Origin: Lepidostoma basale
Lineage: Eukaryota > Arthropoda > Insecta > Trichoptera > Lepidostomatidae
DNA length: 64,000 nucleotides
Assembly (NCBI GenBank): GCA_022606425.2
Contig: JAHDVF020000432.1
Coordinates: 124,001-188,000 of the forward strand
Direction: 5' to 3'
Below, piece after piece: positions 18,001 to 62,423 of the stretch. A program made the translations under genes and the position numbers. Within the stretch, counting starts at the first letter, position 1. The number at the start of each line of letters is the position of its first letter. Below the pieces are notes generated by a model. That model was not told the origin of the DNA. It was given only the letters and a program-made list of their open reading frames with translations, and made no database searches.

Positions 18001-21000
18001 ACAATATGACAGAGCGGAGGTGCAGAAGCGGACAAACCTTGATTTTCTTACAGGCGCGGCCGATGCTGTCTCTCAGCCCCTTAACCTTGGCTTGCGCTGC
18101 GGCCTTGTCGCTCTTGAGCTGATTGGAGACCGTTTCCAGCTGCTGGATATTCCCTTCCAAGGCCCGGATCTTGGCGATGCCCTGATAGCGCGGCCGGTGC
18201 TGCTTGCGCACCAAGTAGCCTCGCACTGACTTTTGAATTATTATCAGATTTGCACGGCGGTAGAGAATCTTGTATTTTACTGGAATACCAAGAAAGAAAG
18301 AAATACAATTATTTTCATGATGAAACCCTCAACACCCCTTTTAGAAAGAGTGTCAAGTCGATCAACACGACTGAGGGTGTAATTATCACTCACACTTGAT
18401 TATGGAGAGCACTCCAAAGATGGACTTTCTCCAGCGAGACTTGACAAGCCACTTTTCCACTGCCTTAACAATAGCTTTGAGGTTCTCGGGGTCAGACTTC
18501 ATGATGGTGTCGAACTCCGCATACTTGCCCGGCCGGAAGAATACGCGGGTCAGCCCAAAGTTGAAGTCCTTGCTGTTCAGCTCGAAACTGTGTAAAATGG
18601 CCTGGAAAATAATTGCAACCATTTACACTCCTCTCTCCTTTAGGAATTCATCTCAACTCAACACTTCACGATCTTTGTGAAATGCAAACCCCTGGCCGTA
18701 CGTACTTCGCAGAAGGTCTTGGGAGAGAGGCGGCTCAGCAAAGGCGGCAAGAAGGAGGCGTACATGGAGTGCAGCTGCTGGAAGGGTGCTCGCGAGGGGT
18801 AGCCGTGCTCCATGAGCTCCAGCACAGACACCATGCCGCTGCACTGCAGCTGGTTCAGAATAAGGGAGTTGTCCGACTCTCCATCCACCATGCGGCTGTT
18901 GGGCTTCACGCAGCGAACAAAGTTGGTTGCCTGTAAGATTCAATGTCCGTGACTTATCCTCCCCGACAGTTGACACTTTGAATACCAAGAAAATCTGTAA
19001 CATCTTATTTACATTTTTTCTCAACTTGTCCATCAGCTCTCCGAGCTGCGTCTGGAATTTTGATCCCACAGAGATGAAGGTGAGCTTGCCCTTGGAGGTA
19101 TTGTTGTTGTTGCTCTGGAACAGGCCCTGGATAAGGGAATTGCTGGACTCCTGCACCAGGAACTCCAGCGAGGCATGCAGCGCATCATTGTTCTTCTCTA
19201 TAAATTGGTCCTAGAATACAATGGCACATCAGAGAGCTCTAGAGAGGGAGAACCAGCTTGAATAACAAAGAGAACCATACAATAAATAGTTACAGTGTTA
19301 TAGCACACGGAGCCGGCAAAGTGCCTGATGAGGAACCCTTCATCATCGCGGACAGTGCGGTGCGCCTTGAGGCGAGACTGGCGGGGCAGTCCTAGACGGC
19401 TCCCACCGCCGGCTCCGCCCCATTGCTTGTGCACCGCTTGCGTGAAATGGGTGTAGTCCGGTTTGGGAAGCTTAGACTCTTCATCCAGCAGATTGAAAAT
19501 ACCTCCATTCTTGCTCTCGATGAGATCTGTAAGAAGCCTCAGTTTAGTTCAGTGGCCACAAAAAATAATTCCAGTTTCGGCAGATGTGAATGTGCACAGC
19601 TTACCGATACACTCTTGGTTATCCACATAGGAGATCTCGGGCAAGTTGAGTCCTTCGGCCTTGTACAGGTCCTGCTCGTTCTTAAATATTCTCTCATTGA
19701 AAAATTGTTGAAGTTTTTCATTACAGTAGTTGATGCAGAACTGTTCATAGCTATTTACAGTGAAGTATTCTGGAAATACCAATTGGTTGGATGAAAAGCA
19801 AGAAAGCATTGTGGTACAATATTAATAACAACAATTATTATATTTACCGAAGCCAGCAATATCGAGGATACCGATGTAGTAAGCGGATGCCTGAAAGGGT
19901 ATGCTCTGATTAATTCTATTGACAATGTGGTCAAACAGTCGGCTATACACGGCCTTTGCAAGAGCATCACGCGCATTGTTGGCTTCGTACACCTTCAGCG
20001 GAACCCTGCAACCGAGCAACAACACCAGTCAGTATTCAAACATTGCATCGGGCTGGACATATAGCTAGACAGGGCAGCGCCAGACATATCCAGCAGTGGA
20101 GGGAAGAAGAAGAGATTTAGTTTCAATAAAAGTGAATGGGTTTATCCATATACAAATAGTGTTGATCAGAATTTCGTGTTGACCCTTGAGGTAGTTATCT
20201 TGAGGGAAAATAGTATTCACCTGCCCAAATGTATTCTGTACTTAATTACTGTAACTGAAGTACGTGTCCTGAAGAATTTTAGGAGATAACTAACATTATA
20301 GCGGTTCCCTTGGCGCCCCCTCGCGAGCTCTGCATGAGGCGGGAGACCAGCGCCATGCGCAGCTCGCCGGGGTCCACGGCCAGCAGGCGCGCCGCCTGCA
20401 GCAGGGCGGGCTCGCTAGGCACCGCCACACGGCATCCGCCTCGGGCTCCCTCGGCTTCCTCGAACTGCACGTTGCCCAGGTGCAGCACAGCCGCCACCAC
20501 CGAGTAGATGCCGGTGCGCTCCGCCTCCGAAATCTCAAGTCGAGAAAGAGCCTGTATGGAATGAATGGACAGATGTTCGTGTCTAGAGTTGTACAAATAA
20601 TAAATACCAAGTGGCAGTAGAGTTTGGGACTTTTCAAATCAAATCGGTTAATCTTTTCGAGAACAGGTACTTGTCTTTTGAATATACTTTCACTGATATG
20701 AAAGATGTGGATCTCCGAGGAGACTTACTTGGTCCAAGGTCTTGAAGTCCTCCACATCATCCAGCATCGGATCCTTTAGGCCTCCCCTAGCCTGATGCTG
20801 CTGACTCTTCTGATTGGCATTCAGTTTTCTCTCTGTATTGGCATTTGTGAAATATTGGGTGCATCCGTTTCTAAGATACTAAAATAAAGACAAATAAATG
20901 TTGAGATCGCACTCTGATGTTCACAGAAACTTTGATGAATTGATTCTCATTCTTTGCACTTACGTGAAAATCATCGGGTTTGGTGATCTTGAGCGCCTGG

Positions 21001-22216
21001 CGCAGGGAGTCGGGGGCGCCGGCGCACAGCAGGTAGAAGACGTGGTAGTTCCTCTCCTCCGGCGCCTGCACGCAGATGCGAGACTTCTCCAGCAGGTAGT
21101 GGGAGATGTAGCCCCCCGCCACCTGCCACTTGTTGCTGAAGTGCACCTCCATGAACTTGCCGAACCGAGAGCTGTTGTTATTGCGCGTCGTCTTGGCATT
21201 TCCAAACGCCTCCAGAACGGGATTGGCTGCAAGAACAATGATCCGACGTATCGTGTTACTGGATGTTTGGACCCGCCACTCGGAGAAGCGGTGCGGAAGT
21301 GAGGAGATGCTCACCGTCGAGTATCTTCTGCTCGATGGGCCCGGCGCCGGCGGCGTACAGGTCGCACAGGTAGCGCAGAATGTACTTGGTGGACTCGGTC
21401 TTCCCGGCGCCCGACTCCCCCGACACTATTATGGACTGGGACTGCTTCATGGACTTCATGTCGCGAAACGATTTATCCGCTGGAATCACAACAAGCTATC
21501 CATGTTCACATTCGGCCGTGCGGGTAGACAAGTCACTAGGGGCATCCCCTCCTCACTTCACTCACCGACAGCAAACACGTGCGGCGGCATCTTGCCCAGA
21601 GACTGGCCGTGGTACTTCTTGATGGTGCTGGAGTTGTACAAGTTGGCTATCTCTTTGTAGGGGTTTATAGCCACCAGGATGTTAGCCACGTACGTCTGCA
21701 ACGGGTACACCGACATATCAGCGACCACTATTTATCTCATTACTTTGTTGAATGTTAATACAATTATTTACACTGCTAATCCACTTCTGGATGGAGTATA
21801 ATAATATTAATAAAAGTGGATTAAACAGTGTCATTCAATCTATTCCAAATCTAATTACTTACATATATCTTTTCTTTCTTAAATCGTAACCGGACATTGT
21901 TTAGAAGTGTCGCTTCATTGAGAAACATTAAATTACCTGCAAATCAATCAAAATCATTAATTAACTTAACTTATTCAGAGTAAGTCAACAATTGGCGTTG
22001 CTCGTCCAGTGATATAAGAGTGACCAAGTCCTTACAGTTGTCGTCGACTTCCACGTCGGCGTCCCCCGCGGGGAAGACGTCCTCCAGCGCGCAGGTGCGG
22101 CGTGGCAGGTGCGGCGCCAGCGGCATGACCTCCACGCCGTCTGCCAGCAGCTCGCGGATGTGGCCCAGCACGAAGCACTCGGCCGGGTCGCGCGCCCACA
22201 CCAGCTGCTTCTCCAT
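15018..22216 (-). CDS. jar: Myosin VI (unconventional, minus-end-directed; jaguar/95F type), complete
   Basis: Coding exons: 22036-22216, 21863-21936, 21566-21695, 21315-21479, 20964-21226, 20729-20878, 20295-20551, 19848-20005, 19605-19769, 19294-19526, 19013-19210, 18706-18930, 18394-18601, 18038-18279, 17840-17952, 17599-17706, 17375-17512, 17131-17223, 15954-16074, 15745-15862, 15252-15443, 15018-15169. All phases agree; 1227 aa. The motor has P-loop GESGAGKT (149-156), switch [11 protein letters not shown] (about 199-208) and switch II DIAGFE (455-460). After [11 protein letters not shown] comes the myosin VI reverse-gear insert ([18 protein letters not shown]), then an IQ region, a charged helical segment rich in Glu/Arg, and the cargo-binding domain with RRL (1082-1084) and WWY (1150-1152). 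It moves towards actin minus ends in endocytosis, cell shape and spermatid individualisation. The start is [10 protein letters not shown]; the exon reaches back to an acceptor after 22223, so a 5' noncoding exon lies upstream. Confidence 0.96.
15512..15676. mobile_element. Palindromic MITE inside a myosin VI intron
   Basis: Two arms of about 64 bp (15512-15575 and 15613-15676) are near-perfect inverted copies: outer ATGAAAACATCTGTTTTCTA against AGAAAACAGGCGTTTTCATT, inner GACATGTTTCACC against CGAAACATGTC. The spacer is about 37 bp. Partial copies occur at 13390-13500 and 40635-40710. It lies in the last-but-one intron of myosin VI and has no coding capacity. Confidence 0.85.
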
Positions 22217-23379
22217 CGCGCGCCTGCAACCACTCTCCTCGGTTAGACCTCTGCCAATTTAGAAAGGCGGCTAGAACAAGCCCAGCCCAATTCACCCCTG
22301 AACTTTATTTAGATCTGCAGCGTGTCCTCGTTAGTAATTCCTCGCTCATTTCGGAATAACCTTTCACCTTCTTCAGTTCACGTATGACGAGAGTGTGTTC
22401 CTAGACACTAATTGAGTTAGCAGCTCTATTTGGAGCCATCAGACCTTTGTCTTTGTAATACAATATTTTCACAATCACCGGCAGGTAGTGCTCGTCAATC
22501 CGAATGGACCAATCCACAAGCTGTAGAAGAGACGCTGATCTGCTCGCGGTCACGCTTGGAAAATTCTTTAAAAAACACAACGCGGGGCGCGTCCAGCTAA
22601 ACGCGATTTGTAACTATTGGCGGACGTCATAACTTTGGAATATTGGCACAACAATTAGGGGAGGCTTGTCATTATACGTCGGCTACAGTACACACCGGCA
22701 CTTGCTGGTCTAGTCGCGTGGCAGCTCGGTGTGATTGTAGAAACTTGTAGTTAGCGTAAACAGTAGTCTAAACATTATGAAACTTCTCAAAAATAAATTC
22801 ATTAATGCTAAATCCAAAGGAAAAATAGAGACAGTTTACAATACACTATTGTGTACAACGTTAGGTCAGATGACGACAATTTGATTTTCCGATGATAATC
22901 TTTCCACTTGAAAGATTTGAGTGGATAAGTATAGAATCATTCCCTCCCCCCAGCAAGATCAGCAGCCTATGAGCCACGCTTACTATGGCACAGTCATCAT
23001 AAAGGGGACTATCCGCGCATGATAATAACACCGGGATTTCTATCTGAAAGTGAAATTTCTAGTGAAAGCAGTTTCCGTCTAAACCGTAATACCTATACCC
23101 TGATATACCATTACTACATTGCACAGTCGAGGGGAGATTTAGAGACAAAAACAACAATATGGGCGCCATCAACAGTGATAACACGTTCGAGTTACGGTGT
23201 CGTTATACCTCATGACAATAAAGTACTCGGAAATTGTGATTTAAATTGCCCGCGCTGAATATAAAAAAAAGTATTAAGTTTGTAGGACTCTCCTTAATAA
23301 TTAAGCCAAAAATGAATGCGATCTGTCAACTAGTTTGTTTACAGCAGCTGCTCGAATGAGTCCACATCAGGAGTGTGAA

Positions 23380-27391: not shown

Positions 27392-30355
27392 CACAATGGG
27401 GCAGGATTCAGATTTCTCATACAATAACCCAAAAAATAAAAATTATGATTCATTAAACGCTTTGTTATTATATGATGACTCAGATATATTTAGCATATGA
27501 TCACGAGCAGATAGACAAGCTAGACTGTGACACGTTCGCTCTAGCACCCCTCAATCGGAGCCGATTACTCGTAGAGGTTACACGTCCGTTATTTCAAGTC
27601 AGCGCAACACCTAGTTTCTAACATTTCTTTAGTTGTATTATTGATAAAAAATTTAAAGTTTTAGTATGGAACCTTACACGTCAGGTATGTATCCTCTTTT
27701 TCGACTTAAATTAATTGTAATTACGGCTTGTTTTAAATGTAAAAAAATTAAACCGATTTCGCATTAAAATGATACAGAGGTTTTTGTAATATTAAAAAAA
27801 CATTTAGAGATTTAGTATAGAATCCCGATGAATTCCGCAAGTATTTTAATTGATTTATAATAAGTAATTGTTGTACTTTATTGATATGATGTTATTTTTT
27901 GCCACTTTTTGCACCTTTTTATAATAACAGCACATTTCGAATAACCAAAAATGAAAAAAAAATACACCAATTTTGTATCTTATTCTGTTTTTCCTTTTCT
28001 CGCATACCTAGGTACCAGCTCCAGCACTTTGTTCATGACAAAGCATCAATTAATAACGCTTATGAAGAGTTTCGGAAAAGAAAAATTGGAGGATCAGATT
28101 GATTTCCTGCAAAAAGAAATCATAAAACGGACAGGGTGTGTTGATGAGTTAGGAAAAAGTGTTACGTGTGTTAAAAATTTTATTCGGTTTAAATTTGATT
28201 ATAAATCATGATGGGAATCAGCTCACTGGATGAAAGAAAGATTTCTCGATGTTAATAAAACGTGGCTTGATACATCCGTTTCTTTCATTCGCGCTACAAA
28301 AACATGTGGCGGTCGCCCGATGATTCCTTTTGAGGAGAGTACAGAAAGGGTGAAGCGGCAAAAGACGGTTAATCTGAGGAATTCTGCATCTCTGCCAGAC
28401 TTACTCTACGCAACACAAATGGAACTTAGAGCTGCATGACAGGCAGATGCCTCAAAGTTGGTTCGAGGTATTTTATCTGTTCCAACAGGTTCAGGTAAAT
28501 CTCATCAAACTTCCAGGGAGTCTTTTGGAAACGTGTTCATGTCAGCAGGAGATGCTTTAGCACTTTTAATAGAAGCGGACTTGCCTCCACATCAGTATAA
28601 CGCTATTAAGTTGAAATCTAAAAACTTATATCCTTCGTATAAAACTGTACAGGCCTAAAAAAGACGATGTTATCCAGAGCCAGAAAATATACATGTCACG
28701 GATACTTTGGTACTCGTATATGTTGATTTGCAGATCATGCTTAATCTCACGATTGAGCGTTTAATTATCACCCATCAAGATGTTGTTTTTACACTCAAAC
28801 CCAAAGAATTAAATAATATGATATTATATTCCAAATGGGGAGTTGATGGAAATTCGGGGCACAGTTCACATAAACAGGCTTTTTTTGACGCAGATGCCGA
28901 TGATGCAGCGGTTTTTATCACATCATTTGCCCCCTTACGCCTAGTGTCTGGTGCCAAAATTATTTGGCAAAATCCAAGACCTGGTTCAACGAGGTGTTGC
29001 AGACCTCTGAAAATAGAATTTATTAAGGAATGCACAGCAGTACCTTTGGAAGAGAAACGAAGGGTAGATGAAGAAATAAAAAATATTACCACAACCATAG
29101 TCAGACTAGATGGGCGCGTTATCGTAATCAAATATCATTTAATATTCGCAATGATTGATGGCAAAGTATGTAATGCTATCACACATACTTTTTCTACCCA
29201 AAAATGTTACATACGTGGTGCCACATCTAAACAATTGAATTATAATATATAGATGCATTGCTAACAAAATAAATAAAAACAGAAAATTTAGAATTCGGCA
29301 TTTCGGTCTTGCACGGATGGATACGCTTTTTTTAGTGTCTTCTCCATTTGACGTACAAACTGCCTATAAAAGCTCGAGGGACAGACAAGGAAATCGTTGA
29401 AGAAACTAAGAAAAAAATTTAAGCTCAGTTCAAAGAAAAACTAGGTTTGATCATGGACAAACCATGCCGGGCTTTGGTAACACAAACGATGGAAATACCG
29501 CCAGGCGTTTTTTTTAAATGCAGAGGTGCCTGCAGAAATAACCAATTTAGATGTAGAATTAATAAGAAAAATGCACACCATTTTAATAGTTATATCATGT
29601 GGTCATGAAATTAGTGTGGAAAAATACCGGGAGTATGCGTTACATACAGCCAGATATTTTGAAGAAAAATATCCGTGGTGTAATATGCCACCCACACTTC
29701 ACGAATATTTAATACACGGACCTGAAATAATAAAAACGTCAATATTGCCGATAGGTCAATTAACCGAAGAAGCGCAGGAAGCACGTAACAAAGATTTTAA
29801 AAAGTTTAGGGAGTACCACTCGAGGAAATCCAGCAGAACGAATTCAAACACGGATATTTTAAATTTTCTTTTACTCTCATCAGATCCTTTAATAACTAGT
29901 AAGAGGAAATTACCGAAAGAGAAACTAACTAGATTCCCCAAAGACGTTTTGGATCTGATAATACCTCCATCTACAGGGTCCTCCAGCCAAAGCGAAAATG
30001 ATGAATCCGATGACAATGATGGTGTCTCAGAAATATCTGATAACGAGTAAAAAAAATATTGGTGTGTATTTATGAAGGGTAAAATCGACGTTCTTTCAAG
30101 AAACGTATATATTATGTAAAACTAAGCTGCATTTTACGTTATTAAAAATAATAAAAAATGACTTTGACGAGCATATAAAAATAAGACAGTATTTGACACA
30201 TATTTCATTGTTATTGGAAAAATAAGGTGTTAATATTCATGACATTGTCTCTTATTTTCATTAACCTACCTAATTACATTAAATCCTTTGATTTATAGCT
30301 ATATATATAGCTTCTATGAGTTAATGACACGTTTTCATATTTTGGCCCCACTGTG
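27392..30355 (+). mobile_element. Full-length Transib DNA transposon (2964 bp)
   Basis: The left end begins CACAATGGGGC and the right end, reversed, begins CACAGTGGGGC, with a 5-bp CGGCG duplication outside each. Transib ends are known to resemble V(D)J recombination signals. Here the right heptamer equals the consensus CACAGTG. On the left, CACAATG is followed after 22 bases by ACAATAACC (27421-27429), one base off the RSS nonamer. Between the ends is a broken RAG1-like transposase gene in the same orientation. The length of about 3 kb is usual for the superfamily. Confidence 0.9.
28020..30050 (+). pseudogene. Transib (RAG1-core-related) transposase, broken
   Basis: One frame carries most of the protein but has stops at 28209-28211, 28437-28439 and 28656-28658, and at least two frameshifts between 29253 and 29525. 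Diagnostic blocks are VDGNSGHSSHKQ (first catalytic Asp, 28845-28847), FITSFAPLRLVSGAKIIWQN with PRPGSTRCCRPLK, MIDGKVCNAITHTF, EFGISVLHGWIRFF (other frame), HGPEIIKTSILPIGQLTEEA and QEARNKDFKKFREYHSRK. The Glu at 29778-29780 aligns by eye with the catalytic Glu of RAG1 (GNESGNKLFRRFR). It ends in an acidic Ser/Asp/Glu tail (DESDDNDGVSEISDNE). It is a family member by motif order and cannot make an intact protein. Confidence 0.88.
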
Positions 30356-46606: not shown

Positions 46607-47157
46607 TTAGGTGTATAACTTTGCTTCCGCCGTTTTGCAATAGATGGCAGTAGCGGTAAGTGGTAGTTGGAATAAATAGATCATAGATGTCATACAATAA
46701 GCTTAAGTATTTGTAAACATAACGCCATCGAAATATTAGTCGATTTGTGTCTGCATCATAAAGTTATTCCCGATTAAACATGTCAGCTTACGAGCCAAAT
46801 TCTCGTCATTTGCTGGAGGTTTTAATTTTATGCTTTAATATGAAGAAATCTGCGGCTGAGGCTCATCGAATGCTCTCAAATACCTATGGTGAGGCCGCTA
46901 TTAGTGAAAGAACGTGCCGAGAGTGGTTTCAACGCTTCAAGAACGGTGATTTTAACATCGAAGACCAGCATGGCGGTGGAAGAGAGAAGGTTTTCGAAGA
47001 TGCAGAATTGGAGGCATTACTTGATCAAGACTCGTGTCAAACGCAACAAGAATTGGCAGGATCATTGGGAGTGACGCAACCAGCCATTTCAAAACGCCTG
47101 AAAGTCATGGGAATGATTCAGAAACAAGGAAATTGGACAAGGATTCAGAAACAATAA
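46607..47157 (+). mobile_element. 3'-truncated mariner with intact DNA-binding ORF
   Basis: The left terminal repeat starts at a TA with TTAGGTGTATAACTTTGC (46607). An open frame from ATG 46780 to TAA 47155-47157 encodes 125 aa: the paired helix-turn-helix domain (SAAEAHRMLSNTYGEAAISE; RTCREWFQRFKNGDF; QQELAGSLGVTQPAISKRLK) up to GMIQKQGNWTR, where a full transposase would continue into the catalytic domain. No DDD core or right end follows. Its 3' break lies beside the 3' end of the thioredoxin-repeat gene. Confidence 0.85.
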
Positions 47158-47938: not shown

Positions 47939-50900
47939 TTACGCTTGCTTGGGGTGCGCTGGCGGCGCGGGCGGTGGGGCCTTGAAGCACTGCAGCAGGA
48001 AGGCCGTGTACATAACAAACGCGATGGAGATGGCGATCATGGCATACATGAAAATGTTCAGTTCGGGTTGGCGGAAGCGGTTCTTTCTTAGCCATTCCAG
48101 TACCTCGGATTCTGACAGAATGTCTCCTGGAAATGCCAATGTTGTTTGTTGAACACTTTAATAGATCTGAAGTAATTTCATAAAGTTGGTTTGACCAGAT
48201 TAATCGCTTAATTTTTAATATACAGATTAAAGAAAATAATGTATATAATCAGGCTGGCAATGTATTATATATATCCATCTGTGTTTACCTCTGTAGATAC
48301 TGGGGAATCTTCTCCTGAAGTAAACAATGGCAGGCAACTTCGTGACACCCCACTTGCGGGCGTATCGAGGGTCACCCATCTTCACAAATGTGATATCCAG
48401 ATTATCAGTCTCTCCGTCTATTTTTTCCAAATTATCCAAAACAGTTTTGCTCTCCGGCGCTTCTTGTTCATCTGAAATATGAAAACAATCACTTGGATCC
48501 AGTGGCTTGACTATTCACTTGTCACTTGCCACGACTACAAGATGGATGACTACTACTGCAATTACTATAATCCTTATTTTCAGTCAAATTATAATATATT
48601 TATATTAGTTGCTACTTAACAAATAAACCCTGTTAGTACAGAAAATGCTTTATTGCAGTTTCCAATTTACCCCGTCCATTATATTTCTAAGAGACCAATT
48701 ATCCGGACCAGCCGAGATGATAAAGAGGAGGAAATCAGTACTGTAGAGTAATGTAAGTCTTTTTATGTACATGTACTACATACGTACTTGTTTTTGCAGT
48801 CAACTTTGTAATTTCATAATCAATCAATTAGCGGAGGAAAAAAATTGATTTCCAGCTTATTTTGCTAAAAGACTTAACACCTATTTGATTATCCAGAAAA
48901 ATCGGTATCCGGAACACCTCCGGTCCCAATAACTCCGGATAAACGACGTTCTACAGTAATAGAATTTACAAATGAGCATGATATGCTTGCATGTCTAGGG
49001 ATTTTATATTTATAACAGTTGATATTATTAATGAGAGAATCTTACAGAAATAAACAGCTAAAAATTCATTTTCGTCTAGAAGCTTGTCCAACATTTTTTT
49101 GTTGACTTCTTCAATTTCGTTTTTGATTTCGAAGACGTCCTGAGAGGTGAGCCACTGCAGGACCACATCCACCTGGTGCAGGTCCCCGTCGTAGAGCATG
49201 GGGACCCGCTTGCGGAAGTACACCAGCGAAGGGAAGTTGATAATATTGTATTTCTCGTTGGCCTCCGGGCTGGCTATCTTCACAAAATCTATCCCGTACT
49301 GGTCTACATCTGTGTCTATCTGTTCCAGTGCTTCCAAAACTTCTTCACATTCCGGGCAATCTTCATCGACTAAAAGATTAAAAAGAAATGCTTACGGTTT
49401 ATATAAAAAAGGAAATCATTGCAAGTTTTTAATTAGGCAATGCTTTATAGTAAAAATCACATACAGAAAAATACAACTAATAAAGCTGATTCATCCATCA
49501 GCCTCTCGAGCATTCTGTCATTGACATCTTCAATCTCATCCGCTAGCTCCCTGTTGTCATCATCTATCAGCCACTCTAGCACCGACTCTTCGTTCTGCAA
49601 GTCTCCTTCAAATAGTAGAGGATTTCCATTTCTGTAACACGAGCAAACGATGAGAGCCACATCCATAAAGGAGATACAACATTCTAAATAAAACTACCGT
49701 ACCTGAAGTAGACCATGGCGGGGAATGTCTTGATGGAGTAACGCTTGGCTAGCTGCGGATCTTGAATCTTGACCATGTGAATACCAAACACATCGCACTC
49801 GTCATCCACTGTCTCCAGGCCCTCCAGTATTTGGTCGCAAATGTTGCAGTTAGGCTTATCTATAAAAATACGGGTGCACTGGAAATTAGAATCAATTAAG
49901 ATGTTCCTCGATGGCAAATTGTGTTAAATAGAGACTCACAGAAATAAACGGCCAAGTATTGAGTTTCCTCCACCATGGACTCTAGCATGACCCTGGTGAT
50001 AAGCTCTATTCGATCTTCTGTTTTCTGCGTTATCAGCCATTGGAGCACCTCTTCCTCCTCCGAGAGTGATCCTGTGACAGGAAATACCGTACTTTAAACT
50101 TTAAACAACACCAATACCTGTCAAATAGAAAACTGAGATAAATATATGTGTTGTCTCACCTTCAAAGACATTTGGTATATTATTTTCAAAGTAAACTAGA
50201 ACAGGAAATTCATTGACGCCGTAGGATTCAGCAATGGAAAAGTCTTGTGTTTTGACAAACTTTATTCCGTGGCGGTCGCAGTCGTCGTCGATGTTCTCCA
50301 GCTCCTCGAGGATCCCCGTGCACTGGTCGCATTCGTCGGCGTCTGGAAACATTCGTTTTCTCTCTTCAACTTGTTTATGACATGCATATATTCATTTTTA
50401 AATCTAACATAAATTCAGTTCAAAAAGGTAATTACTTTCAAATTAACAAAGGTTTAGAATATCACTTATTTTAAATACTTTACTTAAGATTCCAGAAGAA
50501 AAGTTATATAAAATAAAATAACAATTACTTAGTATCTGTTAAATATTTAAGTATATTTTTTAGTTTCATTAACTTATTCATGATATTACAATATATTAAA
50601 AAGTGTTAGTATAATTTTAGGTTCCTATATAAATCTAATAAAAAATTGTATTTAAATATTAAATTCTATATCTAACTAATTATCATTATTTAAGTTTGTG
50701 TTTGGGTATATATTAGGATTGAAGGGATGTTGAATGCTTATAGATATGTGTGAGGTATAATATCTTCATATTCCTGGAATTTCAGCTGTCTTCTTACCAA
50801 ACGTTTAAGATTTACCAATTGTGAAATACAAAGCAAATCCATATAAAGTTATTTGTGTCAGTCTGTAAGAAACAAATGAATTGTAACGGCAATCTTATGT

Positions 50901-53900
50901 ATAAACGGATATAAAAAAAAGTAGATGAATCATTTAAGTATTAATTAGAGTATTTGAAAGGTTGTATTCTGTAGAGAAACAAGAAAGGTGCTTTCATTTC
51001 AGAATCATTGTGTTTAGAATCAGAACTTATAGAATCAAAAATCTCCCATGATATGACATCTAGCTTATTTGTATATTCTGTGATCTGGAGTGGAAGTATT
51101 CAAAGGATAGGCAGTGGGCAGTGGGCTGTGGGCAGTGGGCAGTGGGCAGTGGGCAGAGGGCAGTGGGCAACGTGCGTTAGTAGTGCAGTAGAGCATAAAT
51201 AATAGTGAGATGAGGCCTGGTTGGTTAGCATTGGTTAGGGCGAGCAGGCAAGGCTAGGTTTGGTCAGTCAGGCCGGATTAGATGAGCAACTCGAGGGTTG
51301 TTAAGTACCCTCGTCTCCGGTGTGCTGGTCCTCCTCCGAATGGGTGGCGGCTTCGTGCTCTTTCTTGGCGCGTAATTTGCGCATCACTTTGGAATTGCAA
51401 ATATCGCACAACGTTTTGTTCCCTAAAGCGGTTGTACAAAAAGAATGAAAATAGGTTATAACAACAATGAGGCAAAAACTTAATAAGAATTTAAAACCAT
51501 ATATTATTTATTAAGGCAAGCATTTTTATGGAGATGCAAAATGATATTTTTTATTAATTTGAACACAATTTGAGGCAAACAATATAATAACTGACCATAT
51601 AATATAATACATGTTTATTATTTCAACTGACTCAATTTGTTGCCGTTGCGCTACAAAACCAAAATCATCAATCTTTTTCAAACTCAAATTCAATTCATGT
51701 TACTCCACAAAAATAAGCAAAGGAAGTGGAGATGAAATGCATCGGCTCTCCAGCATTATATTTATCAAAAACTAAAGATTTTCCTTCCACAAAGAAAAGA
51801 AAATATCACAAAGTTCCGTGATTATTTGACCTAGCTCAAAACTAGTGATTGCCTTGAAAATTCAGAAGGGGAGATAATGTTAAACCTTCTTACAGAAGTA
51901 AATGGCGAGGGAATCCTCTTCATTGATCAGCTTCAAAAGCTCCTCCCCCTCCAGCGCCTCGATCACATCCCCCGCAGGGTCCTTTTGCGTCAGTAGCCAG
52001 TTCAGGATCTCTTGCTCGTCGTAAAGATCACCTGTAAGACCAATGTTATATGTACAACAAATAATCTTATGGTTGTCAGTAATTGATAAGTCCACTGTGT
52101 TTCATCTTCGTGTTTCGCTCTCTCAATCTGATGACAAATAATGTTATAGGGAATCCTTTCGAGTGTTGAAGGCCACAGCTGATAATGATGGATGGTGGCG
52201 CAGAGCAATTCATGCTACATATCACATTTCATTTATTTAAATAAAAATCATGATAAACATTGCAGACATTAAATTCCAGATCGTTTGCAATTATGTAATA
52301 AGAATTTATTAGAGAAAATAAAATTTTAAAAAAGCAAGAACTAGAAAAAATCATAACATTGATATCGCATCCCTGAGGCAACCCCCAATATCACGAAATT
52401 TGTTGACCTCCGAGGCAACCTGATTAAGCAAAAATATCGCTCTACTTACAGGCATTACCATTGGCAGGGTGGTTCTGCAGCGTGCCAAATAAAACAATCT
52501 TTGCTCTCTTTGACGATTATCAGGGACACATAGACCCACATCAATCAGGACATCCGAGTATGTATACGGCCACCAATCAGCTAAATTAAGTGAGCTCCCA
52601 AGTGGATATTCCACCTTCTCCCCAATGACTGGTAACTTAGCATACATAGGAAGAAGAAAAGTCGGAAAGAGCCACGGGTAATAACTGCGCTCCCTGAGGT
52701 AAAGAAAGCGTAAAAAAAAAATCTGCACTCGCTCCACTATGGAACTATTACATAGAAAATTGAACAATAATTGAGAATCAAACATAACACCGAGACCTTT
52801 GGAAGTAGAAGCTCTTTCAAACTGTACTACATCCATAAGATAGCAAAAGTATAATGTTTTTGATGCTCGCATATACCAGGGGTGTTAGTTGAAGTTTGCC
52901 GGTTTTACTCATAGATGTCGCTAGAGATATGTATACATTTCTATGATTTGGCATCTATGTCATATTTTTCTATGGACATTAACCTTCAAAAATACACAAG
53001 TTATGGTATGACATAGCAAAGCACTTGGAGACGTTGAAGATATACCACATAAAGACAGTACTGAAGCCGCCCAGTCACTCACCGAAGAGGTCTAATCTAT
53101 AGTAGGTATATAATAAAGCAGTTTTACCAGCATAAATGACAGGCTCCTTAGAACCCATCTTGAAGAAGAGAACAGCGGGCAGAGCGAAGACTCCAAACTC
53201 CTTGGCCATCTTCTTGTCATCGATCTTTACGAAATTGATTCCCGCGCCATCCGCTTCATCGTCGATGTGCTCGATCTCCGCCAACACTCGCGGGCACTGC
53301 TTGCAATCATTGCTGTCTGGAGAGGGAAGAGAACCATTCTGTTAGCTTTCATCAGATGATCTTCATTACTATCTAATGATATAAACTAGCCATTTTGCTA
53401 TATTGTTATTCAAATTTTTAATGATAATCATTGTGAATTTTTGCGCGACAAAAATTACACTTATTCATAAAATGTTTTTACTTAAAAAAACTTTTGTTAC
53501 CGAAGTAGGGAAAGTTTGAATAAGTAAACGTATTTTTTATTTTCTATTAAAAGGTATGTCAGCATGCATTGTTTGAAGAATGGAAAAAAATAAAATTCTT
53601 CTTCCTTCCTATAGAATATACCAATTTGGAATGGTTAATGGAATAGTTCTAGTGTTTCGTCAATAACCCGAGGTCTGTGTAAATGTCGCAAAGAGAATTG
53701 ATTGAGATCTTGGTCCAGACTTACAGAAGAATACGGCCACATAGTCTGAAGTCTGTCGGATCTTATGGAACATCTTGCGGTTGACCCTCTCGATGTGGTC
53801 CGTGAGCTCCATGTTTTCAGGGTTGGTGAGCCAGTCCAGAATCTCCTCCTCATCATCGATGTCTCCGTCGTAGTTTATGTATTTCCCTTTGCGAAAATAG

Positions 53901-56900
53901 GTGATGCCAGGCGGGTCCCGGAAGCCGTACTTCTTGGCCATCAGCCGGTCGCTCATCTTCACAATCTTGATCCCATACTCGGCCGCCTCATCGTCTATCA
54001 GCTCAATGTGGCGGAGGATTTTGGGGCTGTCAGGGTTCCCCTCTTTATCTGGAACGTGTTGCACAATGCAAAACATATTTGTGATATGATGTGATCCTGT
54101 GACATGATCATGATCTATGTAGAAATATGAGTATATAATGATGCTGGCAGGACGCAGCTGATTTTTATTTCAATTGATGTCTGACTCTGAGATAGCCAGC
54201 CCACTCACGACTGCACTTGCGCCCTACCAGCACACCTCTCCTACACTCGACTCACAGAATATGACGGCCAGGAACTCCTTGGTCTCTATGTACTTGAAGA
54301 GCTTCTCCCGCTCAATGTCCTCGATGCTCTCGTCATCCTTCTGGCGGATCATCCACTCTAAAACACTTCCCTCATCCAACAAATTTCCTGAAATCAGTTT
54401 TCTATTTTATTTTATTATATCAGCAATTACAGAGAAAATCTTGTTAGCCCCACCAATATAACTTCACTCAACTGATATCATATTATACTCCTTTCATAAA
54501 ATACTGTTTGTGTGATACATTTAATCCCAATACTAGGTGAGGAGATGAAATCAACAATCACCCGCAGGGGTTGAACCCTCTGAGTTTTACTGTGAAATGA
54601 AAATCATTTAAATAATTGTATGTTTAGACCAAATGCATTCATCCTGTTACAAATATTCATTTAAGAAACAAGTCCTACTGGTCGAACAAAACAATGGTGG
54701 AAATAAATACATATATGTATACAGTCATAGCTCAGTTCATTAACTTAACATGTTCCGAGGAGTCACTTCAGTTCATAAACTATAATGTTCGCGGACCAAA
54801 GCAACTGAAAGTAGCGAAACAGTGAAATGTGTATTTTGTTTGTCTGAATAGTTTTTTAAAACTGTAAAAGTAACATCACATTGTTAATAAGAATGTCAAC
54901 AGAACTGTCAGTCACAGTTTTAATAGGGAGATTCGTGTACACTTCACTCCACTCCACTCTGTTAGCCGGGAGTCGTATCAAGAGCAAAATATATACAAAA
55001 ACATCGCAGAATGATGTTTACGTCGTGAAGAGAAAACACAAGTGAACATTCCATGTGGACTGTTTGCGAACCGATGCATAGTTAGTGAACTGAGGGAATG
55101 GCTATATCTAAATATAATATACCTACCTTGGCCACTTTTAATAAATAATTTCGTATTTAACTAAATATATAGTGATAGTAATGCGACAGAGGACCATCTA
55201 AACTATGTGTTTATAGAAAATAAAAAAGATTTTTTAATTTGTTCTACAAGTTTAGTCTCGTGGAAAGAATTAATAAATCTTTATCGCAATAACTAAACAA
55301 ATGTTGTGTTGTATAAAAAAATGATTTGAGTGTGTCCTAGAATTAGAGAATATCAAATCTAACAACCGAGAAGAAAAGAAAGAACCCACATCCTTTTAGA
55401 GCATTATTTCCAGCAATGACACAATGTGAAGGAGGTAAGGAGATGTCACTCACCGGCTGCGCAGGGGCCGCTCCGTCCCGAGAGCAGACTCCGTGGACAT
55501 GCTTTAGTGCCTGTCGGGTGCGTGGGTGTGTGGGTGTGTGGATGCGGGGAAATGAGAAAAGGCCATGTGGTAATAGTAACAATTTATTGGTTATAGTAAC
55601 AGCACGCTCGTGCGCGGGCGTCGGGCTACAGCTAACGGTGGAGCGACGTACCCAGTCATGTAATACAATCGCAAAAGTCAATTTTTGTTTCTTAAAATTA
55701 AGAGTAATAAACCATGTATCACTTGAATTTGTACTAATTAATATTACAGCCCTAACTACTGAGACCTTTAACCTGTACTAGCCCAAATTCAAATATACAT
55801 ACTTTTATAAAAATAAACATTTCCTCCCGACTCGGGATGAGAGTGGTTCCTCAATGACGGGAAACTTACTTAAACTCACTTTTTAAAAGTGATAAATTTG
55901 ATATGTAATGGAAGAGCAGTAACTCAGTACTTCCCACCTACCGATAATCTATGAAACTACGCCAACAACCAATCGTAACATATTTCAACAAGAAGCTACA
56001 ACCACTACCTGCGGGGCGAATCTTGATGCCTCCAGGAGACACTTAAACGTTTAAGAATAATTACTAAAATAAGTAAATGTACTCAGTTCTGTTTCAAAAT
56101 TTTGAACTAATATCAGAACAAAAATGCTTTAATCGGAGCTTGTACTCCGACTGACTAGAAAGTCACTTTGCCTACAAATGCTGCAAGTTCTAAGGAAGAT
56201 TTAGGTGTGGGGATGATCCCGGCGGGAGCTCAAGGGGACACAAGTCTGGAGTGCAAGAAGGTGTGAAGGTGTGCGGTTAATGAAGAGCAAGCGCGAGTTA
56301 GCCGGGGCAAGCCGGGCAGACGGTGCTCGAGCATTCAAAACTTATGTCCTCAGGAAGGTCCCACACGAGAACTCCCGAATGATGGTGCACGACTGGACGG
56401 GATGACGGATGTTTACCACCACCAGATATTACCGCTCCCGAATAAGCCCTTCTTGCCCTTGCCGCCCTTCTCCGGCTTGGCTGCGAGGGCCTTGGACTTA
56501 GCTCCCTTGGGGCCGGAGGGCGTGGCCGCCGGCACCTTGGTGGCGCCCCCCACTTTGGTCGGACAGCATTGGTAAGGTTCGTAGGAAGGTTTAGGGGTGG
56601 CCTTATTCCCTCCCAGCCCGATGTAGAAACAGCCATCGCCTGCAGTCAGTAAACAATATGTCAGAACACGTATTACAGGAGGTGCGGCAACACGCAAGCG
56701 GAACACAATATGCTTCGTGCTGGTGGCAGTACTCTCAATACGTGTTGTTAGTATAAAAACCAGATCACTTTGCAAGCGGAATGAAAAGCTTATCGACATT
56801 GTTGGACTGTCTGCAGACGACAACTAGTTTACGGAACAGATTAGGGTTGGGGCCATGCAAGTCGGTCTCCTTAGGGCACTGCGATAACGGGGACATACCA

Positions 56901-59900
56901 GGTTTACTGACGCCAATTACCTGTAAAGAAACGTCTGATCTTTGTGAATATACTGTCCTCGTCCTCGGAATCTTCGCTACTATCGGAATCCGAATCAGAG
57001 CTGTCGGAATACATCGGTATTGGCTTTTTTTTCTTCACATTTGGCTTCGACGACTTGCTGGGATTATCGGTAACTTTTCTATTATGTTCTACTTTTTTCA
57101 CCTTCTTGAATTTAGCACCGTAGCCTTTTTCTGCCTCAGTGCTGTAGCCTTCATCTTCAGAACTGTCAGAGTCATCATCATTCATGTCTGTTTCAACGTC
57201 AGGATCAGTGGTATCTTCGCTACTCTGCTCAGTACTGTCATCTTCTTCAGAAGACTCGTTCTCATCACTATCATCATCATCAGTGCTGTCATCATCATCA
57301 TCATCATCATCATCATCTGTGCTTTCATCGTCATCATCATCATCATCCTCTCCATGTTGATTAGTATCATTATCGCTACCGCTGTCATCAGCGTCAGTGT
57401 CGTCGCTATCCTCGCTATCATCACCTGCGCTACTATTGTGGTCGTCCTCGCTGTTGCTGTCACTGTTATCATTACCTGTAGGCATTAGTACGGTCATGCA
57501 GTGAGCTGGTAAAGAGACAGTTTGTATGGCCAAACACGAGTCGAGAGTTTATTAACAAAAGCTACAACAGCAGAAGCTTAATAACTGAGTTTCAACAACA
57601 ACAAGACGCATGCACTTTAAGGTATTTACTTTATAGAATCGTTAAAAAGACTAAACTTTAATTTGAAGTGAAATATGTTTAAAGAGTAAAAGGAATTCTT
57701 ATGAATACTGAAAATAATATTTATCTCATGGTTAAGGATGTGGATTCTTACTTTTTTGATCTACAAGCCACTGAAGAACTTTTTTCTCATTCTTTAGATT
57801 ACCTAAAAATATATGGATTGATGTATTACTTGGGATCACTTGCACCGCTGATTACAAATACAGACTCGAGTAAGTAGGGATCGCAAAGTTACATATTTCC
57901 ACTCGAGTCACTATTGACGGTCAAATATTATGTGTAACATAGGAGACATCGCATAGTGTCCGATACAGAAATACATAGCTTGCTATTGCTCACGGTCCAC
58001 AGAGCGAGAGCGAGACAAGATCGACAAGAAGACAGCCACCACCTACAAGGACCGCAGTCACATAATATGTACTACACTTGTACGGGTAGGTGCGAGTACT
58101 TGCAGCATAATATTATGTTTGTGCGCCAACAAGAGAGATCCTGCAGAAGCTCCAGTCGCTAAAGACACTACTCTCACAGGTACTTTATTAAGGGCTACAC
58201 TATAATCTTAATTATCACTACTAAAGAAAGAGTCCTGAAATGAAATAAAACATATTAATACTTCAATTATTTCTCAATACAATTCCTCCAAATTTTACAA
58301 CTCCTCAGAGATGTTTATTATGTACAAATTAAAATTAAAAGCTAGAGGTTCGAGTGTTCTTTGAATGATGTCCTCTGATGTGTTGATACATTCCTTTTGA
58401 CATTTTTTCAAATCACCATGACGCTGATAAAAATACATGTTCTCTCTTTCAAAAAATAGTGTTATACAATTTGTAATGGCAACATTCGCTGTGCGGAGGA
58501 ATTAAAATATTCATCTACATGACGTTAGTATTAATAGTTATGTGAAACTTAAATCAAGAAACACCGTTTAGGCTGCAGCCACACCGAAGTGTATTGTTCG
58601 GTGACTCGCTTGCTGTCAAACAGCATTGTCAAATTATTTTATTTGAAAATGTCCGCTATTGGTTAAGATTTAAAAGTTACATTAATTTATGAATTAATCA
58701 ATTAAAGTAAAAAGCACCAATGATAAATATGTGATCGCAAAATGATAAATATGTGATCGGTCAAAAAATATATTTCTAATATTTCTTTATTTTAAATTAT
58801 GTAACATTTTATTATTTACATTACGAAAATAAAGAAACAATTTTTATATTATACTATTTCCTTTGTTATCACAAATCATTAGTGCCTTTTACTTTAATTG
58901 ATATAAGTATTCATAAATTAAAGTAAATATAAAAGCTTAATCAATAATGTTACATTTTCAAATAACACATTTGGTGACGTTGTCAAGTCATTCTCGGCCA
59001 GACAGCTATTCTCCATTACGATTTCTTCAACTATTATTCCAAGATTTCAATTTGATACGACCCTCGGGAGTCAGCCGGGGGACACTCACCGTCATACATA
59101 ATGGGCACGCCGGTCTCGTAGTAGACCAAGGCCGGAAAACTGAAGATGCCGATCTCCGAAGCGAGTTTGGAATCTTTGGACTTGACAAATTGGATGCCGT
59201 GCTTGTCTGTGTCGTCGTCTATGGTCTCCAGCTCTTCCAGGATATCGTTACATGTGTCACAATCATCACTATCTAAAAAAATAATCTGAATTAGAGATGT
59301 CGCTTGCATAAATCACGACCGGGCTAATGCGCCACGCGCCATACTCACAGAAGAACACGGCCAGATGTTCGACGTCCTCGATGAGGACTCTGAGTGTCTT
59401 GCGGTCCACGCTCTCGATGACGTCGGGCTGCGAGGTGTGCAGGTTGAGCACCCAGTCCAGGATGGCCTCCTCGTGCATGAGGTCGCCGTCGTAGATGGTG
59501 CGGAACTTGCGCCGGTAGAAGGCCAGCGCCGGCAGGGCGGGCAAGTCGTACTCTCGCTCCACCCCCTCGTCGGAGGTCTTCACGAAGTCGATGTCCTTCT
59601 CTTCGCACTCGTCGTCGATGTTCTCCAGCTCCAGCAAGATCTTCTGCGATTTCTTGTCGCCTTCTTTATCTGCAAGTGCGAGAGATTAATAGTTTGTTGC
59701 ATTTATGGTAAGACCTTGTTTTTTCTAGTAAACGGTAAATACGAGTTAGAGAATAAAAATACTATCAGTTAGTAAAAAAAGGTAGCAAACTTACAGAAGA
59801 AAACAACGACGTGTTCATTTTCCTGGAGAATTTTTTCCAACATACGAGTGTTGACTTCTTCGATCTTTCCGGGAATTTCCAGAGTATTCTCATCCGTCAA

Positions 59901-62423
59901 CCATGACAAGACCTCGTCTTCGTCTTCAATGTCACCTGAGAAAAATTAAAAAATCTGTCTTTAGTAATGAACATTGCTGGAGCCACCGCGCACCGTGGGC
60001 TACTGGCTGGACAGGCTGGCTGCTACTGACCTTTGTACACGAGAGGGTCTTTATTTCTAAAGAACACTAGTGTGGGGAAGTTCTTTATGCCATTTTTCTT
60101 GGCGACGGAGAGGTCCTCGGTTGTAACGAAAATGATGCCGGTCTCGTCCAACTCGTCGTCTATGTTCTCCAGCTCCTCCAGGATGTTGTCGCAGTGTTCC
60201 CCCTCCTCGCACTTGCCACCTGAAGCGGATATTCGGTTAGAACAAGCCCCTAGTGGTGCGGAGCTAATAAAGGATAAGTCGTTTATTACTCGTATGCATG
60301 AGAATTACTCACTGAAATAAACAACGACATATTCATATTCTTCGATGAGATCCTTGAGAATCTCGTCGGTGACCTCTTCGATGGTGGCTGAAGTTTTCTG
60401 CTGCAGTAACCACTCCAGCACCTCCTCTTCGTTCATGAGGTCACCCTCGTAGATGGCGGGGATCTTGTCTTCGAAGTAGAGCAGCGCCGGCAGGTGGTCT
60501 ATTCCATACTGCTTGGCCTCCGCCTTATTGTCCATGCGCACTATCACTACCCCCTCCTTCTCCAGCTCGTCGTCTATGTTCTCCAACTCATTCAGGATCC
60601 GGATGTTCTGCTTGTCATCTTTGTCATCTGAAATGCAACTTTCTCCGATTATAACTTACTGAAACCCTCGGCTAAGAGGAGATGTCAATGCGCTACTCAC
60701 AAAATATGACCGCCAAGAATGGCGTGTTCTCGATGAGCCTGTCCATCATCTCGTCCGTGACCTCGGGGATCTCGCTGTGGCGCTTCTGGTGCAGCAGCCA
60801 GCCCAGCAGCTCGTCCTCCTTCATGAGGTCGCCCTCGTACACGTGCGGGATGCGCTTCTCGAAGAACACGATGGTGGGGATGGTGTCGATGCCGTATTCC
60901 TTGGCCTCCTTGTCATCGTCTATCTTCACAAAGGCAATGTCGTTCTGGTCACACTCGTCATCAATGTTTTCTAACTCTGAGAGAACTTTTTGACTTTTTT
61001 TTTGGTCTTTGTCATCTGAAATAGAATTAAAATGTAAATATGAATTATCGGGCTGTAGATATCAAGGCGCGAAAAACATGCTACCCTCATACATCGGCCT
61101 ACACTCACAGAACAGAACGGCAACGTAGGGCATCTTGTCGATAATGAGGTCCAGCATCTCGTCCGTGATGTCCTCGATCTCGTCGCTCTCGGCCTGGCGT
61201 TTGAGCCACTCCAGCAGCTTGTCCTCGTCCTCCAGGTTGCCCTCGTACACGGTAGGGATGCCCTTCTCGAAGTACAGCAGCGAAGGGATCTTCTCGATGC
61301 CGTACTCCTCCGCCTCCTCCGGATTGTCGATCTTCACGAACACTATCCCCAGCGCGTCGCACTCGTCGTCGATGTTCTCCAGCTCGTTCAGCACTTTCTG
61401 CGACTTGCGGTCGTTGTTGTCATCTGAAACAAATCATCTTCCACTGTGTATTTGAATATTTCTTCTTTGGATTTAAATGTATTGTAGAAAATGTGCTCAC
61501 AGAAAAGAACAGCCATCGTCTTTCCCTCCTTGATGAGGCGGTCGAGCATTTCGTCGGTAACATCTTCTATTTCATCTTTTTCCAACTGGTCAACCAGCCA
61601 CTCCAAGATCTCGTCCTCATTTTCTAAGTCACCTGAGTAAAGAAGTACAGAGTGAACGACGGTAGGTATCATCGTTATACTTTATAGAAGCGAGAGAGAG
61701 TAAATATAATAGACTTGGGCAAGGCTACACACCATCATAAACATTTGGGATTTGCTTTTCGAAGTAGACGATGGCGGGCACGCTATCAATGCCGAAGTTC
61801 TTGGCGGCCGCGTCATCGTCGATCTTCACAAACTGGATGCCGTGCTTGTCGCAGTCGTCGTCAATTTTCTCCAGCTCCCCCAGCACGGTCATGGAATCAT
61901 CATCGCCGTGATCATCTGCAACGTTACACAAGCGTGATATTCGCGGATTGCTCGCCGGCGCCGGGGTAATAATTGCCCAACAGAAATACGAAAGAAAAAG
62001 TTCTTACAAAAAACCACTACAAGGTTGTCGATATTCCCAATAAGAGTATTGAGGGTTTTTGCAGTGACATCTTCAATCACGTCCTCCTCGTCTCCGGTGG
62101 ACTTGTTGGCCACCAGCCACTCCAAGACGTCCTCCTCCCGGCTCAGCTCGCCTGTGAAGTGAGGGTAACTTTGCATTAGCGGAACCGCTGGCCAGTAAGG
62201 ATCACACACGCACGCGGCGGCTAACTCGGCGTATACTCACTCTCATAAATGATGGGGATCTGATGCCTGTAGTACACCAGTTTGGGGAGGTCCCCCAGGT
62301 TGTACTCTTCCGACAATTCCTCGTCGTAGATCTTCACGAAGCCAATGCCCAGTTGGTCTGCCTCGTCGTCGATGTTCTCCAGTTCCTGCAAGGCCTTCGA
62401 GCATTTTTTGCACTCCGGCTTGT
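47939..62423 (-). CDS. Giant tandem thioredoxin-like repeat protein, membrane-anchored isoform (5' end outside window)
   Basis: Exons: 62241-62423, 62008-62151, 61733-61915, 61501-61632, 61109-61423, 60701-61015, 60313-60627, 60031-60219, 59795-59935, 59349-59669, 59090-59272, 54256-54387, 53725-54048, 53128-53316, 51894-52031, 50160-50342, 49940-50071, 49703-49859, 49465-49631, 49046-49369, 48289-48471, 47939-48126; 1511 aa in frame. Borders are GT/AG and phase 1 almost throughout. It has about 14 modules of roughly 105 aa. Each has an entry segment, ELENIDDECD, a FVKIDD-like strand, a cis-Pro loop (IPAIVYF), YEGDL, EEVLEWL and an IEDVTDEML helix, then AVFFY into the next module. CxxC is present in modules 1 (CKKC), 8 (CDTC), 10 (CKQC), 11 (CDQC), 12 (CNIC) and 13 (CPEC); elsewhere it is replaced. 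The last module breaks into a membrane helix (IFMYAMIAISIAFVMYTAFL) and a short Pro-rich tail. It is probably an ER/SR lumenal type I protein. I do not recognise the gene. Confidence 0.82.
51111..51169. repeat. 7-bp minisatellite (GCAGTGG), about eight copies
   Basis: GCAGTGG repeated with two variant units (GCTGTGG, GCAGAGG), just downstream of the 51301 alternative end of the thioredoxin-repeat gene. Confidence 0.9.
51301..51422 (-). CDS. Alternative terminal exon with CDIC and charged tail
   Basis: Acceptor CTTTAG before 51422, phase 1 entry, 39 codons plus TAA at 51301-51303. Spliced after exon 51894-52031 it continues IYF-W-NKTLCDICNSKVMRKL and ends SEEDQHTGDEGT. It keeps the CxxC of a module start but then stops with a Lys/Arg-rich and Glu-rich tail. 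An isoform ending here would be 1107 aa (in the window), soluble, with no membrane segment. The alternative is that it is skipped and 51894-52031 joins 50160-50342; both joins keep frame. Confidence 0.65.
52351..53050 (-). mobile_element. LINE relic (CR1/Jockey-like 3' part) in the thioredoxin-repeat gene
   Basis: Minus-strand frame 52351-52872 (173 codons) reads KGLGVMFDSQLLFNFLCNSS, then SIVERVQIFFLRFLYLRERS and ARCRTTLPMVMPVSRAIFLL. It resembles the C-terminal region of a non-LTR retrotransposon protein and matches the relic at 5960-6281. An unrelated segment of about 150 bp (roughly 52870-53005) appears to interrupt it. Confidence 0.5.
55454..55510 (-). other. Candidate 57-base cassette exon of the thioredoxin-repeat gene
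   Basis: Between a CACCCGACAG acceptor and a CCG|GTGAGT donor lies an open segment in phase 1-1: TKACPRSLLSGRSGPCAA. It would fit in frame between 59090-59272 and 54256-54387. No module homology supports it; splice sites and phase are the only evidence. Confidence 0.3.
55583..55588 (-). other. Possible polyadenylation signal for the acidic isoform
   Basis: TTTATT on the plus strand (AATAAA on the minus strand), about 825 bases beyond the stop at 56413. Confidence 0.25.
56413..56639 (-). CDS. Alternative terminal exon of the acidic isoform (ends WWW)
   Basis: Phase 1 entry after CTGACTGCAG, 74 codons, stop TAA at 56413-56415. It reads FYIGLGGNKATPKPSYEPYQ, a CC pair, then an Ala/Gly/Lys/Pro-rich basic stretch (KPEKGGKGKKGLFGSG) and NIWWW at the C-terminus. 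It joins the acidic exon in frame. A basic tail after an acidic domain and three terminal Trp is unusual. No homology recognised. Confidence 0.65.
56921..57475 (-). CDS. Asp/Glu/Ser-rich acidic exon of the thioredoxin-repeat gene
   Basis: Exon of 555 bases, phase 1 in and out (185 aa), with acceptor TGCCTACAG and donor ACAG|GTAATT. It begins NDNSDSNSEDDHNSSAGDD, runs through long Asp tracts with Ser and Thr, then has a short basic segment (AKFKKVKKVEHNRK; KKKKPIP), a second acidic Ser/Asp block and SIFTKIRRFFT. Acidic Asp-rich tails after thioredoxin folds bind calcium in calsequestrin, so a calcium-buffering role is inferred. Many SD/SE pairs are casein-kinase-2-type sites. The plus-strand frame across it is a shadow. 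Confidence 0.75.
57752..57802 (-). CDS. 51-base exon linking module 8 to the acidic domain
   Basis: Acceptor TATTTTTAG, donor AAA|GTAAGA, phase 1-1. It encodes NLKNEKKVLQWLVDQK, a truncated version of the second-half module start (compare NLLDEGSVLEWMIRQK in exon 54256-54387). After exon 59090-59272 it therefore competes with 54256-54387 and leads to 56921-57475. Confidence 0.65.
57803..59089. other. Intron of the thioredoxin-repeat gene
   Basis: AT-rich; no exon or element recognised. Confidence 0.5.

Follow-up and report, generated by a model that had tools for sequence, protein, structure and literature searches.

The CGHC active site is the criterion for a catalytic protein disulfide isomerase (PDI), thioredoxin-like arrays bearing CxxC are typically located in the endoplasmic reticulum (ER), and calsequestrin is not known to have a membrane helix. 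In Drosophila, l(2)01289, also named CG9432 or hulk (hlk), is what we take to be the founder of PANTHER family PTHR19991 of thioredoxin-like proteins. Here, we describe a gene of thioredoxin-like repeats on the minus strand of a 64,000-nucleotide stretch from the trichopteran Lepidostoma basale (GCA_022606425.2, contig JAHDVF020000432.1, positions 124001-188000; referred to as the window), which we presume to match this fly gene. The lead was judged and not computed, and we consider it quite likely that the two are orthologous, that is, the same gene.

Passages from a phylogenetic study describe calsequestrin as three thioredoxin-like domains and report that none was found in insects (PMC7582152). 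In the published passages on the fly gene, CG9432 is given a thioredoxin-like domain and counted among the modifiers of amyloid toxicity (PMC2777252), hulk is described as striated-muscle-specific (PMC8331185), the splicing of l(2)01289/CG9432 is reported to differ between male and female heads (PMC3827500), and CG9432, there called a PDI, is reported on lipid droplets, with knock-down altering the droplets in fat body and S2 cells (PMC5362240). These passages present the gene as a muscle driver or as an entry in a screen, and none of them gives a mechanism. Our comparison with hulk is by such descriptions: they give the fly gene a thioredoxin-like domain or PDI activity, and they list a splicing difference; domain number, membrane helix and intron phases are known here from the Lepidostoma gene alone. 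The initial annotation, made from the letters of the window, had recognized no described family with this many modules and a C-terminal anchor. This stands insofar as no paper among the matches listed in open-licence PubMed Central describes a tandem array, or a calcium role, for this gene; it does not stand for hulk, probably the same gene, which the available passages already present as thioredoxin-like, striated-muscle-specific and differentially spliced. The gene is real and striking, and it is very probably functional; it probably belongs to a kind that already has a name in flies and not to a categorically new family.

When the minus strand was spliced in silico from 62423 to 47939, 22 exons, all bordered by GT..AG, yielded a single frame of 1511 codons with no internal stops. 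This frame encodes 14 successive thioredoxin-like repeats of about 105-110 residues each, the last of which continues into a membrane helix and then a Pro-rich tail. Half-module profiles, built from the gene's own copies, were used for a six-frame scan of the window, which returned 14 first halves (E 3e-30 to 4e-24) and 13 complete second halves, together with the beginning of another second half in the last exon (E 0.006) and a truncated one at 57803-57750 (E 1.9e-6); nothing else in the window fell below E 1. Because the profiles derive from these copies, the scan is a test for extra copies and not for homology. The tandem modules of the initial annotation, about 14 by its count, are confirmed, and so is its C-terminal anchor, a single membrane helix in the terminal exon.

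The window lacks the 5' part of the gene. A half-module profile scan of 60 kb of upstream DNA located three further exons on the same contig that complete it, the first of which opens with an ATG. The product of this exon has a hydrophobic beginning, then a Pro/Ala/Lys stretch and the initial strand-helix-strand of a thioredoxin domain. The complete gene has 25 exons, and its frame from ATG to stop encodes 1682 aa, with 15 domains and one C-terminal membrane helix. One open coding unit thus runs across 24 splices, as the proposal of one transcription unit requires on the coding side; that it is also transcribed as one we infer. The long introns of 4.7 and 11.1 kb, and possible internal stops at 56415 and 51303 that could end shorter forms, might suggest a row of distinct short genes, or an array in decay that lacks a common transcript, but the frame starts and stops only once (no search for internal promoters was made) and every module is full or nearly full length against the profile, making this a very improbable arrangement; separate short genes were set aside in view of the single open frame. 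With one module as query, a search of the host assembly (768,829,600 bases in 1572 contigs) found no close paralogue elsewhere at E <= 0.001, all 18 matches lying in this gene, although such a query would miss more distant thioredoxin genes.

Three further observations concern the ends of the gene. A hydrophobic in-frame stretch just 5' of the exon at 62423, MRRHECLLIWFCCLVI, has the look of a signal peptide and was rejected as probably a pyrimidine tract read as codons. Pro/Ala stretches are alike near both protein ends: in exon 1, APAAPPAPP follows the signal-like start, and the C-terminal tail (exon 48126..47939) contains APPPAPPAHP. By eye, the first intron is partly filled by retrotransposon-like sequence (L009, approximately 3300-5500) that resembles the reverse transcriptase fragment of the window described below.

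The window protein matched profiles of the thioredoxin clan (best E 1.4e-56), and among 13 single domains Thioredoxin matched nine and Thioredoxin_2 ten at E <= 0.01. The nearest solved relatives by sequence were PDI chains. A predicted structure of moderate confidence aligned to thioredoxin folds, and Foldseek gave no match at E <= 0.001 for a 104-residue piece, which is unsurprising because the query was permuted. By its profile matches, and more weakly by the model, the fold is thioredoxin-like, as first proposed; these matches rule out a non-thioredoxin fold. A cis-proline before the fourth strand is conserved in all 15 domains. CxxC occurs in seven of them (CVTC, CKKC, CDTC, CKQC, CDQC, CNIC and CPEC), another domain has two cysteines five residues apart, and the remaining seven have no pair at that place.

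Nearly all exons had been described as phase 1, and this proved correct for 20 of the 21 window introns (binomial test against one third, 4e-9) and for 23 of 24 in the complete gene. The exception is a phase-2 intron, 49703/49631 in module 12, which lies about nine residues ahead of the usual place, and the two exons of this module (157 and 167 bases) preserve the frame only together. Six modules are single exons (315, 315, 315, 321, 324 and 324 bases), and seven consist of two, six with 183-189 + 132-144 bases and one being the 157 + 167 pair; module 14 is a 183-base exon followed by the terminal exon.

The introns sit within the fold, some immediately ahead of the CxxC position and the others ahead of the last helix. 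An exon module accordingly starts at the active-site helix of a domain and ends with the second strand of the domain that follows, which makes it a circular permutation of the fold. The modular exon architecture first described is therefore right for the reading frame, but its unit differs from the structural domain. The same division applies to the claim that any exon could be skipped or joined. Of the 23 internal exons of the complete gene, 21 have a length that is a multiple of three and allow it by frame, whereas for the fold, skipping of a whole module would be expected to leave a hybrid domain and skipping of a half-module would break one.

Growth of the array by duplication, also proposed initially, agrees with the identities among modules. 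Modules 2, 3 and 4 share 57-58% identity with one another and 48-50% with module 5, as compared to approximately 28-48% for other pairs, a pattern such as would be expected from tandem duplication. In a tree of 13 of the 14 window modules (module 14 was left out), none of the 10 inner branches was starred and seven were open. Fused and split modules are intermingled among its branches, as repeated intron loss might have produced; because the tree is poorly resolved, no number of losses is claimed. The placement of the introns is a clear example of an array that has grown with exon units circularly permuted relative to the units of the fold.

From position 20 on, the protein is acidic, with a pI of 4.26, 23.8% Asp+Glu and 10.5% Lys+Arg, and it ends in ...HPKQA after the membrane helix, with no KDEL-type signal. 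With its 15 domains, membrane helix, strong acidity, lack of a KDEL-like end and absence of CGHC (0 of 15 domains), it differs from the PDI family (PDI, P5, ERp46, ERdj5). The absence of CGHC and of a KDEL-like end also argues against a simple oxidoreductase and chaperone of the ER, PDI-like but expanded, in which CxxC domains would make or break disulfides and the others would bind substrates, with no special calcium role. The kinship with PDI chains, the seven CxxC domains with cis-Pro in all 15, and the fly reports of a PDI on lipid droplets with a knock-down effect (PMC5362240) favor such a protein, but, in addition, eight domains are missing CxxC and hulk is reported to be striated-muscle-specific (PMC8331185), and we regard it as rather unlikely, if the most serious of the alternatives. 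Among other relatives, Pfam TXNDC16_N matched the part of the protein encoded in the window (E 2.1e-35 when repeats are summed), but only two of 13 single domains at E <= 0.01, more weakly than the general thioredoxin models. No bacterial or viral relative was confirmed among the pattern stretches in viral_contigs (16) or genome_contigs (109).

The explanation that best accounts for the whole, held with about even confidence, is a single animal, probably insect, gene for an anchored, acidic, calcium-binding scaffold of the ER or sarcoplasmic reticulum (SR), with thiol chemistry in some domains. The product would be a type I membrane protein with a cleavable signal peptide, 15 lumenal thioredoxin-like domains, a C-terminal helix and a short Pro-rich cytosolic tail. 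Tethered in the SR/ER of muscle, the acidic chain would bind calcium weakly at many sites and would hold client or junctional proteins. Its seven CxxC domains may act in thiol exchange or thiol sensing and the eight without CxxC as structural or binding repeats, and optional phase-1 cassettes, one of them very Asp-rich, would tune charge and length via splicing. Because the chain is tethered, acidic and thioredoxin-like, and comes from what appears to be a muscle gene, a calcium-binding SR scaffold is a natural candidate. The acidic make-up suggests a testable function in calcium storage in insect muscle. The seven CxxC domains point also, or instead, to thiol chemistry. The lumenal location that had been proposed is made likelier by the N terminus, which is signal-peptide-like as judged from its sequence, together with the C-terminal helix. 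By judgement and not by computation, we hold an ER/SR lumenal location to be likely and a calcium-buffer or scaffold role to be tentative, at somewhat less than even confidence. A secreted or cell-surface modular protein, of an adhesion or extracellular kind and not resident in the ER, could have the same signal-peptide-like start and a helix without known retrieval signal, but the 1682 residues contain a single N-glycosylation sequon and the ER is the usual place of thioredoxin-like arrays that bear CxxC, so that this alternative appears improbable.

An anchored acidic scaffold of this kind invites comparison with calsequestrin, from which the protein differs by having 15 domains and not three, CxxC in seven of them, a membrane helix and no Pfam Calsequestrin match. 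PF01216 did not appear among the 19 families that residues 1-356 gave at E <= 10, or among the matches listed at E <= 1 for the part encoded in the window; in both searches, filters drop most matches above E 0.1. An exon-by-exon search of this genome with PF01216 also gave no match, but this is a weak test, as the model rang in 0 of 14 control genomes. Calreticulin, the positive control, gave 10 matches in this genome and likewise rang in 0 of 14 controls. Because both models failed to ring there, absence of calsequestrin from the genome is not proven. It is a speculative and, at present, unlikely proposal that insects, reported to be without calsequestrin, use an independently built 15-domain acidic chain as a calcium buffer of the muscle SR, tethered, adjustable through an Asp-rich spliced cassette and redox-sensitive via seven CxxC domains. 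If the chain does store calcium in insect muscle, this would explain how insects manage without calsequestrin, as far as its reported absence there holds.

Candidate cassettes lie in the 4.7-kb intron of module 8. A scan of this intron identified nine splice-bordered phase-1 open stretches, where 300 dinucleotide shuffles averaged 0.6, under thresholds chosen after the candidates had been seen. The longest stretch was 585 bases against a shuffle maximum of 330; GAT-rich repeats, which shuffling destroys, lengthen open stretches, and this bears on the large candidate exon. Three candidate exons (57802-57752, 57475-56921 and 55510-55454) account, in variant forms, for seven of the nine, and the stretches 58488-58417 and 56979-56899 were dropped, having no other support. 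Together, the four candidate cassettes of this intron (Table 1) are in frame and would give 1972 aa. They may be used in transcripts, as candidates for alternative splicing and for the isoform diversity proposed initially. A weaker candidate, 51422-51309, lies in the intron that separates module 10 from module 11 and was not picked up by the module profile in the six-frame window scan. The same intron has short tandem repeats of GGGCAGT at approximately 51110-51175, noted by eye. The full architecture (15 domains, signal-like start, anchor, candidate acidic cassettes and introns within the fold) makes specific tests possible.

Table 1. Exons and candidate exons of the gene, in window positions unless the contig is named.
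Feature	Position	Strand	Basis
Upstream exon 1	contig 200201-200015	-	half-module match E 7.4e-7
Upstream exon 2	contig 188891-188709	-	half-module match E 1.9e-28
Upstream exon 3	contig 188629-188489	-	half-module match E 1.1e-17
Module 1 first half (CKKC); domain 2 of complete gene	62241..62423	-	splicing, half-module profile
Module 1 second half	62008..62151	-	splicing, half-module profile
Module 2 first half (no CxxC)	61733..61915	-	splicing, half-module profile
Module 2 second half	61501..61632	-	splicing, half-module profile
Module 3, single exon (no CxxC)	61109..61423	-	splicing, profile; first row of modelled alignment
Module 4, single exon (no CxxC)	60701..61015	-	splicing, half-module profile
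Module 5, single exon (no Cys)	60313..60627	-	splicing, half-module profile
Module 6 first half (Cys pair, five residues between)	60031..60219	-	splicing, half-module profile
Module 6 second half	59795..59935	-	splicing, half-module profile
Module 7, single exon (no CxxC)	59349..59669	-	splicing, half-module profile
Module 8 first half (CDTC)	59090..59272	-	splicing, half-module profile
Candidate cassette: truncated second half (last helix only), phase 1 both sides	57752..57802	-	profile E 1.9e-6; in frame
Candidate cassette, 555 bases, 184 residues, 40% Asp/Glu, then Lys-rich and Ser/Asp-rich stretches	56921..57475	-	longer than maximum of 300 shuffles; in frame
Candidate cassette (Gly/Pro/Lys-rich), or terminal exon if read to stop at 56415	56433..56639	-	in frame; weak donor, below scan threshold
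Candidate 57-base cassette	55454..55510	-	shuffle-tested scan; in frame
Module 8 second half	54256..54387	-	splicing, half-module profile
Module 9, single exon (no Cys)	53725..54048	-	splicing, half-module profile
Module 10 first half (CKQC)	53128..53316	-	splicing, half-module profile
Module 10 second half	51894..52031	-	splicing, half-module profile
Weak candidate alternative exon, CDIC motif; in-frame stop 51303 if donor unused	51309..51422	-	by eye
Module 11 first half (CDQC)	50160..50342	-	splicing, half-module profile
Module 11 second half	49940..50071	-	splicing, half-module profile
Module 12 first exon (CNIC), phase-2 end	49703..49859	-	splicing
Module 12 second exon	49465..49631	-	splicing
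Module 13, single exon (CPEC)	49046..49369	-	splicing, half-module profile
Module 14 first half (no CxxC)	48289..48471	-	splicing, half-module profile
Terminal exon: last thioredoxin helix, transmembrane helix, Pro-rich tail, stop	47939..48126	-	splicing; hydropathy maximum 2.09

Elsewhere in the window, exons of a myosin motor gene were found on the minus strand at 20871-22258, with Myosin_head at 20871-21425 (E 3.4e-45) and Myosin_N at 21971-22258 (E 1.9e-5, just under its cut-off); by eye, we take this gene to resemble myosin VI. RCC1-repeat exons occur on the minus strand at 7300-7617 and 10993-11313 and perhaps belong, as we presume, to a HERC-type gene continuing towards 3 kb. The open reading frame (ORF) at 4522-5412 had no family match at E <= 0.001. 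Two plus-strand ORFs lie at 28659-30050, the first again with no family match at E <= 0.001 and the second resembling RAG1 weakly (E 2.2e-4, a match that falls short of the curated cut-off), which we presume may be a relic of a Transib-type transposase. A reverse transcriptase fragment is present on the plus strand at 7008-7382 (RVT_1, E 2.5e-15). Just downstream of the end of the thioredoxin-like gene, a Mos1-type transposase HTH domain on the plus strand at 46762-47157 (E 1e-18) marks a piece of a mariner element.
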